The notes below the pieces were generated by a model. The model was not told the origin of the DNA. It worked only from the letters and a program-made list of their open reading frames with translations, and made no database searches. This document shows, one piece after another, positions 6,745 through 45,039 of a stretch of DNA of 64,000 nt; positions within the stretch are counted from its first letter, which is position 1, and the number at the start of each line of letters is the position of its first letter. The DNA is taken from NCBI GenBank assembly GCA_021772055.1, contig JAETNR010000012.1, positions 1 through 64,000 of the forward strand, given 5' to 3'. This DNA comes from Blautia sp. Lineage in GTDB: Bacteria > Bacillota > Clostridia > Lachnospirales > Lachnospiraceae. The translations under genes were made by a program, and so were the position numbers.

Positions 6745-9700
6745 TTATTCCTGTTTTTTCTTTAAAATCGGTGCTTTCAAAAGGCCTGTCGGTTTCAGTT
6801 GATATTCATAGGACCATTCCTCCAAAACCGTGCGCCATGAATTAGGGCCATACCAGGTTTCTGTCAGATTGCAGTTATGAACGGTTCCAAATGTGTTAAT
6901 ACGGCTGCCAAATACCGTGATCTCAAGGACATGCTCTCCTTCCGGCACCATGCCCAGGCTGCAGGCATACGGAGAAAATACGATCCGTCCGACGGGCTTT
7001 TTATCAAGCATTACACAGATACACGGCGAACGGAACATGGTTGCCTCCACCGTATATTCCCCGCCCTCTGAAAAAAACGGAATTTCATATATGACATTTC
7101 CGCCGTAGAACGGATATCCGTAACGGGTAATATCCCCGAATGCCAGGAATTTTTCAGGCGCCTTGAGAATCTGCCTGGTTCCCCGTATCTCCACGGTAAA
7201 ATCTCCCAAAAGGAACATATTTTCCACATTCGTCCTGCTGTTATACGGAATTTCCGCCATTAAAACGTGTGATCCCTCTGACAGGGCAGGAAGCGGAACT
7301 GTCAAAATGCAATGATCTGTATACCAGCCATCCACCTTCTTTTCCACTTCGCGCCCATCCAGAAAGAGCCTCGTCCCGGCTGCGTTTTCCAAAGCCAGGC
7401 GGCACCCTTCCAGCCTGCAGGCACATTCCACCGTATATTTCAGGGAAAGCAGATGATTCACAGGCTCGGACGCTCTTCTTGTCCATGGCTGGGCAAAGGC
7501 AGCCATACGCATGGGATAACCCAGCTTTTTCCGGAAAAGATTATCGATCCGCAGGATCTCCTCTTCGCCCTGCCACTCTCCGTCATCGAAACGGTACTCC
7601 GCCATATCCAGGAGTCTTACATTCGGCTCGGAAAAGCTTACTCTGTTTTCTCCGGGCAGACGTATGACCTTCGCACGGTCTTCTTCTGTGCCATATTGCA
7701 GGCCGGCAGGCACCTTTCCTTCACTTATGCCATCTTCCGCCGCATCCCCGCAGTCCTCCAGATAAAGAAGGAGGGAGTCCTGGTCGTACATAGTCTTATA
7801 GAAAACCGTATTTCCATCCTTCCGGATACAATCCAGCTTATGAATCTCTCCGGTCAGTGTATCATAAACCGTAACACGCCATCTGCCCCTGATCGTAATG
7901 GTCAAATCCTCCTTTACCGGAAGATCCGCATTTTTCTTGCGGGCAAGTGCGCCAATATGGTCAAAGAGCGCGCCTTCCGGGTTTTCTGTACGGTTTACAT
8001 GTGACAAAAACAGCCAGCGCCCCGCTTCCTCCCGGCGCATCTGGTAAATGATATTCGTGCTGGCCGTTCCGTCCGCTTCTGTAATCCCGACCTCGCGAAA
8101 TTCCTCCAGGGCATCAAGGATCTGCTGGCAGCCAAAAGGCACTACCTCCGCTTTTTCCGCCAGTTTTTTGCCCCGCTCTGAAGGACGGGCATTTTCCAAA
8201 AAGGGAAGCTCCCCTGCAAAGATCACGCGTCCGCCTCTCTGTACAAATGCCTCCAGAATATCCAGCGTGGTGCTCCTGAGAGTCCGGCAGTTTGGAACCA
8301 AAATAACGTCATATTCCATTTCTCCAACCTTCAGCTTCAAAGGATCCTCTTCCGTCAGGCCGCCTTCCTGCATGGTCAGAGACGGCAACAGAGATTCACA
8401 GAGAAAATCAAAATCCATAGTATGATAAAGCAGCCACTCTGTCAGGCAACGGAAGTTTGTATCCATTTGCTCTCGAATCCCGGCGGTCTGTTCTTTCGGC
8501 CCCCAATACAGCCAGTAGGATTCCACCGGATGAATCACGCCCAGGCGGACATACGCTTTTCCTCTTGTCATCGCCGTATTTACTCTTGCAAAATGGTCTT
8601 CCAGAAAAGAATATTCCCGATACCAAGGGGACTGGCAGCCGATCGCTGCCGGATAATCCCTCTTTGCCTCTCCTTCCATGGAAGTCCAGGTCAAATGCGG
8701 CACGCGCACCGTTACCCCCAGCGCTGCCTGCCAGTCCCCCTGCAGCTTATGTCCGCGGAAATCAAAATCCCAGTTTGTCACGCCGTACAGCTCGCTAACC
8801 ATTGCTTCCCTTCCGAACTGATGGACTGCGCTTTCACACTGCTTTGCCGTATTCAGTTCCCTGCGGTCGCAGAGCATATCGATTCCCGGAATATCAAAGG
8901 AGCGGTAGGAACGCATCGCTTCCCCAAGCGCTGCCGTCTGGGACTTCAGTGTCGGCTCTTCCATCATATGTCCTGTCAGGGCAATGCCGTGCGCCCTGCA
9001 CCATGCACCGATCTGATCGGCAAATGCGTCCGCAAAGCGTTCTGCAATGTGGTCATGGTATGCATAGCGGATAAAAGATACCTGCCCGTCCAAAAGCTCC
9101 CAGAACAGCTCCGGAAGATGCTCCAGAAGATGCTCGCCATATGCTTTAAAGAAGGTTTCTTCCAGATCATCCGTATATGGGATGAGCACATCCTTTTTCT
9201 GCTCTGCAAAATCCAGGCACTGTTTATGACAAAACTGAGGCTCATCCGTAAAAATCGCCGGAACGCTGCTGCCGAACTGATCTCCGAGAAGTTCGGCGTA
9301 TTTTTCATGGGTCACATCAATAAATCTTCTGACTGCAGAAGGATCCAGCGTATTCAGGTAAGCCTGGTCATTAAACCATGGATTGTTTCCGGAAACCTCC
9401 AAATAAGCAAACCATTCGCTCCAGCCCTCTTTCACGGTTTCCCCCTCTTCCATCACTGCGTAATCCTTCAGGAAACCCTTGTCCAGACACACCCGGTATC
9501 TTGCAAGAAACGTGCGCTCGTTGCTGCGCACAGCCTGTCCGCTTACTTCTTTTTTGCTTTCCACGATTTTATTGTCATGGCATTCCGGCGTAAAGAGAAG
9601 GAAGCGAATACGGCAGCGATGATCCTTCGTGACCAGCCCGCCGCCTGCGCCGGACGGCCAGCGGTCTTCATCATAAAGCCAGGTCAGCATCTTTTCTTCA

Positions 9701-42956: not shown

Positions 42957-43279
42957 TGCTTTTCCCTCCTTATATTCTAAGTACTTTCCTTTCATAAAAA
43001 AAACTTCCGTCCCTGTAAAAGGACGAAAGCAATTCTCACCTCGCACCACCAATTACACTGTACAGGCTCCTCTGCATATTCCTCCGCCGATACATGTTCC
43101 CTATAACGGCGGAAACACCGTCTATCCCTAATCCGCACCAGCGCCTTTCGGAAAAGCAACTCCGGAGTGATCTTCTGCCAACCTTACTGGCACCAGGCTT
43201 CCACCACCCCCGGCTCTCTAAAGCGTTCCCAGTCAGCATACTGTCTCCATCAAAGTCTTTACATATTTTTTTCGTGTGC
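42957..43279 (-). ncRNA. T-box riboswitch (tRNA-Ile) leader of ileS
   Basis: Minus strand contains AGAGAGCCGGGGGTGGTGGAAGCC stem I motif, T-box-like GGTGGTGCGAGG, terminator CTTTCGTCC-ttttaca-GGGACGGAAGTTTTTTTT (43004..43029); candidate AUC specifier at 43169..43171. Confidence 0.85.
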
Positions 43280-43315: not shown

Positions 43316-43366
43316 GCATTTTTTATTTTTTTTAGTTTTTCAGGTTTTATCCGTCTCCAGTCCACA

Positions 43367-43695
43367 GCCGAAGGAACGAACCGGCCCGCGGGGAGAGGGG
43401 ATGCCCAAAGGGAGGGTGTCGCCCGCGGGGAGGGACTCCTGTGTGAACGGGCTGCATTTGCAGGAGTCTTAGAAACAGTTCGTTCGCTGTGCTTCTGCGT
43501 TGTTCAGAAAATCCGTGCTGTCTGAGCCGCCAGGTGAGTTCACGGATTTTCTGAACGCTCTTAGCAGAAGTGCAGGGAACCTACTGTTTCTTACGGCTCC
43601 GAAACCGCAGTCTGCTCACACAGGAGTCCCTCCCCGCGGGCGACACCCTCCCTTTGGGCATCCCCTCTCCCCGCGGGCCGGCTCGTTCCTTCGGC
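43367..43695. repeat. 329-bp imperfect palindrome (80-nt outer arms, 79/80 complementary)
   Basis: 43367..43446 vs reverse complement of 43616..43695 differ at one base; central 169 nt also self-complementary, including GTTCAGAAAATCCGTG / CACGGATTTTCTGAAC. Confidence 0.97.
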
Positions 43696-43705
43696 GTCCT
43701 CCCCC

Positions 43706-43734
43706 CTTGTATCTCCTCTCCTATTCATGTATAA
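43706..43734 (+). promoter_or_regulatory. promoter of the D,D-carboxypeptidase gene
   Basis: TTGTAT-17 nt-TATAAT downstream of the palindrome. Confidence 0.55.
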
Positions 43735-43806
43735 TATACAAAAGCCTGCCCCCCCGCAGGCCACCCAGGGGAGATAGATAATCTAAAAAAGAAGGGTTGT
43801 TTAATA

Positions 43807-45039
43807 ATGACAAAAAAGAAACCAAACCGTTTGCTGCTGGCCGCCAAAGGCCTGCTATGCACAATTCTCCTGTTAAACCAGCCTGCATTCATTTATGCAG
43901 CAGAAGGAGATACCCAGACCGTAACCCCCACACCGGACCCCCACACCCAATATTATGCCCAGGATGCCTCCACAGACTCCATCCCCGGCTGGCCCAAGGG
44001 TCCCCGGATCGAAGGCGAATCCGCCATCGTTATGGATGTCTACACCGAAGCCATCCTCTATGCAAAAAATATCGACAAACAGCAATACCCGGCCAGCATC
44101 ACCAAGATCATGACTACACTGCTCGGCTGCGAAAACCTGGATTTAAACGCAAAACTGACCGTCTCCGAAGCTGCTGCCTACGGAATCGAACCCGGCAGCT
44201 CCAGCATCTACGCAGACACCGGTGAAGAATTCACCGTAACCCAGGCTCTGATGGCTGTCATGCTGGAATCCGCCAACGAAATGTCCATTGCCATTGGAGA
44301 AGAAGTCAGCGGCTCCTCCAAGAAATTTGTAGAATTAATGAATGAACGTGCCCGGCAGATCGGATGTACAAAAACCCACTTTAACAATCCCAACGGCCTG
44401 CCTGACAAATTACACTACACCACAGCCAGAGACATGGCCAAAATTGCCAGAACCGCCTGGTTCAACCCGCTGTTCCGGAAATTTGCTACCAAGGATCTGT
44501 ACGAGATCCCGCCCACAAACAAGCAGCCTGAAACCCGCTATCTTCTAAATCATCACAAAATGATGAAAGGCAGGGATTACGCCTATGACGGCGTTGTAGG
44601 CGGAAAAACAGGCTACACCGATGCTGCAGGAAGCACCCTCGTCACATTTGCCAAACGGGGCAGCACCATTCTTCTGGTGGTAGTATTAAATTCCGTCAAT
44701 GGTGCATGGTCCGATACGGCTGCCCTTTTAGACTATGGCTTTGATAGTTTTGAACGTGTAAACATGAAGGTGGATCTGAACCCGATTCCTGTAAAAACGC
44801 TCCCCAGCGAGAAATACATTCTGAAAGACGGCGGTGACGTTTTTCCGTTTTATTACACCCGCAACGTATATGTATCCGTTCCCAAAGGAGCCGATGTATC
44901 CGGCCTCACAACAAAACAGGCCCTGCTGCACGATGCCGCAGGACCCCTAAGGCTGAGAACCAGATATTATTATAATGACCACGCAGTTGGATTGGGCATC
45001 CAGTATGAACGGAATATCCTGTCCGATCTGCTTCACTAA
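43807..45039 (+). CDS. D-alanyl-D-alanine carboxypeptidase (peptidase S11, DacF-like)
   Basis: SxxK in YPASITKIMTTLL, KTG in GGKTGYTDAAGST. Confidence 0.92.
   Translation: MTKKKPNRLLLAAKGLLCTILLLNQPAFIYAAEGDTQTVTPTPDPHTQYYAQDASTDSIPGWPKGPRIEGESAIVMDVYTEAILYAKNIDKQQYPASITKIMTTLLGCENLDLNAKLTVSEAAAYGIEPGSSSIYADTGEEFTVTQALMAVMLESANEMSIAIGEEVSGSSKKFVELMNERARQIGCTKTHFNNPNGLPDKLHYTTARDMAKIARTAWFNPLFRKFATKDLYEIPPTNKQPETRYLLNHHKMMKGRDYAYDGVVGGKTGYTDAAGSTLVTFAKRGSTILLVVVLNSVNGAWSDTAALLDYGFDSFERVNMKVDLNPIPVKTLPSEKYILKDGGDVFPFYYTRNVYVSVPKGADVSGLTTKQALLHDAAGPLRLRTRYYYNDHAVGLGIQYERNILSDLLH

Follow-up and report, generated by a model that had tools for sequence, protein, structure and literature searches.

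A long Blautia palindrome belongs to a gene-less family of DNA hairpins that may move as single strands

The palindrome at positions 43367-43695 of the analysed window (64,000 nucleotides of contig JAETNR010000012.1, Blautia sp.) is one copy of a dispersed repeat family, and the best explanation of this family, to which we give a probability of about 0.55, is a non-autonomous mobile DNA element that encodes no protein and would act as a long hairpin of single-stranded DNA. The observations concern the repetition of the element, its insertion as compared with an empty site, covariation of DNA type, replication-linked orientation, head-to-head pairs and the absence of a linked gene.

Structure and setting of the palindrome

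Two arms of 132 nt (43367-43498 and 43564-43695), 86% complementary and separated by a 65-nt spacer, form the palindrome. Direct reading reproduced the claim of an earlier sequence-only reading that the outermost 80 nt of the arms (43616-43695 on the 5' side of the element and 43367-43446 on its 3' side, minus strand) are complementary at 79 of 80 positions, the single difference lying at 43380 (A versus G), and the central fold-back noted there was found as a perfect 16-bp inner repeat (43502-43517 and 43541-43556). Folded as RNA, a check which that reading had proposed, the palindrome gives one rod on either strand (-290 and -275 kcal/mol; z of -24 and -25 for the two strands) with 0 of 100 shuffles as low for each strand; it is far beyond chance. 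The flanks are also as described: on one side lies ileS with its T-box leader (43016-43262, minus strand; Rfam E 7e-17, where the 77.6 bits compare with a gathering score of 93), and on the other a D-Ala-D-Ala carboxypeptidase gene (43807-45039, plus strand).

The whole insertion spans approximately 43347-43725 (minus strand, as its conserved core), its ends being approximate because the flanks are AT-rich. Within it the asymmetric conserved core (43445-43617, minus strand) matches the 172-position model R1 with 186 bits and E 2e-43, and alignment and pair counts place conserved internal mismatches and covarying stems in the same interval. The inner perfect 16-bp stem (43502-43556; helix 4, with two-sided change in 10 of 16 pairs among copies) bears the apical motif GAACTCAC-loop-GCTCAGACAGC (43517-43541, minus strand; consensus GAACTCGC..GCTCAGACAGC), which is the part common to several phyla. 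Outside the arms stand two unpaired terminal motifs on the minus strand, GGGGGGAGGAC at the 5' end (43696-43706; genus consensus AAAAGGGGAC, found in most copies at the same position) and TGTGGACTGG at the 3' end (43357-43366; genus consensus TGTGTATTGGC).

Up to E 5 the Rfam search of the element gave nothing relevant, and neither a transposase gene (TnpA, HUH, Y1) nor tnpB lies inside it. A 93-aa open reading frame (43500-43781, plus strand) reads through the element; such frames (..KSVLSEPPGE..) are by-products of the hairpin, which elsewhere are probably annotated as hypothetical proteins.

Copies, empty sites and the evolution of the stems

Same-genome search found about 28 places that match the central 130-210 nt of the palindrome, while its outer arms, private to the window copy, have no other match in this genome. 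The palindrome is therefore not a one-off duplication, and since the core also recurs in single-contig relatives the earlier doubt about an assembly artefact is removed. Read as the minus strand of the window, all copies share a 172-nt core, conserved and asymmetric, in which constant mismatched loops (CTAAG/CTAAG, GCTAAAAGC/AACGC and GGTTTCGG/CCTGCAAATGC) and the conserved hairpin tip GAACTCGC-loop-GCTCAGACAGC recur; the arms beyond the core vary in sequence from copy to copy and are palindromic within each copy, and the hairpins of the family measure about 200-330 nt.

In two Blautia genomes (G186 and G207) nearly all copies are bounded by AAAAGGGGAC before the initial GC of the palindrome and by TGTGTATTGGC after its final GC, that is, two unlike unpaired motifs flank it. 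Among 107 genus copies the 5' foot GGNAC is present in 78 and the 3' terminal motif, in some form, in 52, and the terminal sequences vary among copies and between species. Many copies of the window genome end in GTTACATTTCA/TGAAATGTAAC, and its recent sub-family (L003, L004, L007, L010, L014, L017, L018) has nearly symmetric ends of this kind, unlike the genus-wide GGGAC/TGTGTATTGGC. The flanks 3' of L232 and L238 contain two further abundant intergenic repeat families, seen in the Blautia genomes G207 and G172.

The covariance model R1 of the 172-position core, run on 60 sampled Blautia genomes, matched in 22 of them with 1 to more than 30 copies each and in none of the others. In the close relative G191, which has no R1 match, the otherwise syntenic gap between ileS and the carboxypeptidase gene lacks the element, a few bases replacing window positions 43340-43720; thus the insertion is estimated at about 375 bp, slightly longer than the palindrome. 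The same relative has empty sites that correspond to further copies of the window genome. A non-autonomous mobile element, one of the options of the sequence-only reading, is supported by this multi-copy, gene-less and between species patchy occurrence with empty sites. Duplications at the ends, another check proposed there, turned out irregular, namely AAAAA at L014, TTTTCAT at L007, GATTC at L017, GGTTTTTGTTAT at L004 and none at L003, or 0, 5-7 and about 12 bp depending on the site.

The copies L218 (G186) and L248 (G207) represent one insertion, with the upstream gene 94% and the downstream tRNA region 99% identical; their cores are 91% identical (77% for the next best core), while the outermost ~28 bp of both arms differ and yet are palindromic in each. 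This one clear ortholog pair supports in part that arms of orthologous copies can be replaced symmetrically in place, and to that extent the earlier suggestion of recent birth or gene conversion of the near-perfect arms holds. Most other ortholog pairs are near-identical. In one ortholog the hairpin tip was deleted between GCA repeats, which fits hairpin extrusion at replication, and another has shrunk to a 26-bp palindrome. Purifying selection at each site, hinted at by a few ortholog pairs, was dropped after the full count, and the divergence of the element between orthologs resembles that of the flanks.

Pairing in the stems is preserved through sequence change. In 24 copies of the window genome 96% of stem cells are paired, and 32 of 57 stem pairs carry two-sided changes, a count reached by 0 of 500 shuffles and compared with 8-15 for slid structures; covariation, for which the sequence-only reading had proposed a search, is thereby established among the copies. 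The 107 sense copies of the genus contain 5306 Watson-Crick, 96 G.U and 113 A.C stem cells, counted in a large alignment that had itself been fitted to the model and from which one conserved G.U column was omitted. As an RNA control 31 T-box leaders, counted identically on the RNAalifold structure, contain 220 G.U versus 14 A.C (Fisher p 5e-31 against the element), and the 24 window-genome copies, treated exactly like this control, contain 40 G.U and 34 A.C. One-sided changes between orthologous copies amount to 29 GT, 25 AC and 59 other. Because G.U is no commoner than A.C, the stem pairing appears to be maintained as Watson-Crick DNA and not as RNA.

Replication, partner genes and relatives in other phyla

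In four Blautia genomes with a located dnaA, the terminus being assumed opposite to it, 72 copies point in the direction of replication and 24 against it, and for single copies the ratio is 59:11 (p 4e-9), so that the core strand is mostly the lagging-strand template. Relative to the neighbouring genes 17 copies have the same and 27 the opposite strand at the 5' flank (12 and 23 at the 3' flank); copy orientation is thus independent of flanking genes and is not explained by gene-strand bias. The 13 close pairs (<3 kb) in the same four genomes all stand head-to-head, their GGGAC ends pointing outward; wider pairs enclose ordinary genes and one encloses an IS605. Upstream of their 5' end 20 of 85 copies have a terminator-like hairpin with a T-run on the same strand, mostly at a distance of 14-21 nt, as compared with 6/85, 1/85 and 0/85 for the other three terminator arrangements.

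Clustering of neighbouring open reading frames and the Pfam tally of 109 neighbours from several phyla returned ordinary families only, with no transposase or other neighbour gene shared across phyla. A RAYT/Y1 transposase was considered as the driver and rejected, as the number of copies does not go with PF01797 matches: none was obtained in G177, which has 23 copies, or in G163, which also carries the element, and G190 gave 6 but has no copy. Neither the Y1 profile nor the neighbour tallies found a mobilising enzyme for the element.

The tip pattern occurs in more than 118 stretches of named genomes among the matches listed, some of them by chance; these include Lachnospiraceae, Bacteroidota, Pseudomonadota, Desulfobacterota and Acidobacteriota, and most lie within long inverted arms of unrelated sequence. 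Whole-genome samples contained 66 tip matches in Bacillota (44 excluding the window genome) versus 1 of the reversed-pattern control, and 32 versus 5 in Pseudomonadota; the enrichment over control in both phyla is real. Nine copies lie in a single-contig Pseudomonadota genome (G831), and eight of them make up four head-to-head pairs with distances of about 140-240 nt; further pairs of this arrangement occur elsewhere in Pseudomonadota. Full-length R1 matches were obtained in Acidithiobacillus (E 3e-10) and Noviherbaspirillum, and the plasmid pILYOP01 of Ilyobacter (Fusobacteriota) carries 6 to 8 copies. The E. coli collection searched gave no match; phages and viral contigs gave few, weak or single matches, so the element is not a phage module.

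From these data it is tentatively suggested, as a possibility that we rate below even odds, that the hairpins may belong to an undescribed superfamily of long single-stranded DNA hairpin elements in at least six phyla with the common tip GAACTCGC..GCTCAGACAGC; what moves them would be an enzyme, or a replication factor of the host, that has no relation to the RAYT/Y1, DDE and integron systems.

Some relatives show features of their own. In Desulfosarcina (L405, 2263-5000) hairpins in direct orientation recur every ~1.3 kb and separate small toxin-antitoxin-like genes (HigA, HicB and VapC types), an arrangement like that of a cassette array. In Noviherbaspirillum, Variovorax, Aureibacter and Desulfosarcina (L080 at about 7150-7900, L407, L408) an A/T purine-pyrimidine hairpin precedes the main one, together with the purine tract repeated a third time (CTTTCTTTG..CAAAGAAAG..CAAAGAAAG), and the combination might form an intrastrand triplex (compare PMC4666352).

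Known systems, proposed mechanism and rival explanations

The best reading of the comparisons is that the family works like IS200/IS605 elements or REPINs but belongs to none of the REP/RAYT, IS200/IS605, attC and MITE groups. Integron attC sites are single-strand recombination sites in folded form whose stem sequence is free and which carry extrahelical bases, and in these three respects the family resembles them; however, the R boxes are missing (RYYYAAC and GTTRRRY occur together in 0 of 107 copies) and Blautia copies do not stand at cassette ends. No conserved terminal inverted repeats in common with an insertion sequence, such as DDE-moved MITEs have, were found.

REPs are 20-40 bp long, carry a GTAG tag and go with a RAYT (PMC3116915, PMC3733652), and REPINs are inverted doublets of them with compensatory stem changes (PMC3116915). 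The family is likewise gene-less and intergenic, with a single-strand hairpin, compensatory stems, unpaired end motifs and inverted doublets (13 of 13 close Blautia pairs and four pairs in G831). It differs by its ~200-330 nt hairpins, an order of magnitude larger than a REPIN, its conserved tip and its GGGAC/TGTGTATTGGC ends; no RAYT is linked to it, copies occur in genomes without detected Y1, and in place of a GTAG/GTGG foot tag (a GTRG string lies in the foot of 25 of 107 copies) the foot motif is GGGAC. Comparable in some points are the CGTC-tagged REPs, which have no dedicated transposase and form inverted dimers with an unpaired CCA tail and stems of 8-9 bp (Di Nocera et al. 2013, PMC3733652), and some TIR families of TIRYTs, whose motif GGGGWSAS (PMC3733652) resembles GGGGAC of the family. 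Against this likeness in inverted dimers and lack of a dedicated transposase, CGTC stems are short, their tag and tail differ from the family in order and strand, and a conserved tip has not been described for them. IS200/IS605 elements transpose as single-stranded DNA, insert into the lagging-strand template and are oriented with replication (PMC5371812). The family shares this orientation (59:11) and structured single-strand ends, as in IS608 (PMC5371812), while it has no tnpA or tnpB and the whole element is one hairpin instead of two subterminal ones. No earlier description of the hairpin family was found in the literature searched, which covered few subscription journals, and one may exist.

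In the proposed mechanism passage of the fork would expose the top strand of the element (minus strand of the window) in the lagging-strand template, where it would fold. A putative trans-acting enzyme would recognise the conserved tip, the bulges and the two unpaired ends (GGGAC and TGTGTATTGG), and would then transfer or copy the strand to a different fork, into DNA that is single-stranded there, the new insertion often landing just beyond a terminator hairpin with a T-run. Any stem sequence would be tolerated if paired, and copies would diverge through paired changes; once inserted, they would decay without base-pair selection. The single-stranded intermediate, its recognition and the enzyme itself are inferred, since neither a transposition event nor an intermediate was seen.

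Several other explanations account for part of these data. An intergenic and dispersed family of structured or double-stranded RNA genes selected for their RNA fold, also raised by the sequence-only reading, would suit the very stable folding, the strong covariation and the conserved internal loops that resemble RNA motifs, but the ratio of G.U to A.C (96:113, and 29 GT to 25 AC between orthologs), the blank Rfam result over the element and an orientation set by replication and not by genes make it unlikely. A conventional MITE, mobilised through its terminal inverted repeats by a DDE transposase, we regard as equally improbable. The GTTACATTTCA/TGAAATGTAAC ends of many window-genome copies with short flanking repeats (AAAAA, TTTTCAT, GATTC) speak for it, and yet the centre is conserved instead of the ends, the ends differ between species, duplications range from none to ~12 bp, no transposase is a common neighbour, and MITEs show neither head-to-head pairs nor replication bias, so that the earlier term MITE-like fits only loosely.

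Replication itself may have made the palindromes, if an old and rarely spreading hairpin were kept symmetric by template switching at the fork without a dedicated enzyme. The near-perfect arms private to each copy, the symmetric in-place exchange of arms, the tip deletion between microhomologies and the fork-linked orientation agree with such an origin; nevertheless template switching would erase the mismatched loops that are conserved in all copies, and it leaves dispersal and the cross-phylum tip unexplained, for which reasons its probability seems low. It is very doubtful that the hairpins are bidirectional terminators, mRNA stabilisers or insulators kept for function at each site: they are intergenic and often beyond gene ends, with 30 convergent sites in outside genomes, but their occurrence is patchy among close species with empty sites, their divergence is like that of the flanks, and the window copy lies between divergent genes.

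Long palindromes are usually unstable and are shunned by genomes, whereas this family keeps hairpins of 200-330 nt whose stems are free to evolve as long as they stay paired DNA, and which follow the replication fork. The ratio of G.U to A.C offers a simple test by which genome scans can tell hairpins of DNA from those of RNA, and the family accounts for recurrent spurious open reading frames in Lachnospiraceae genomes. If the single-stranded hairpin element is mobile as inferred, it would constitute a second, much larger REPIN-like system in distant phyla, and identification of its enzyme would reveal a new way of handling single-stranded DNA.
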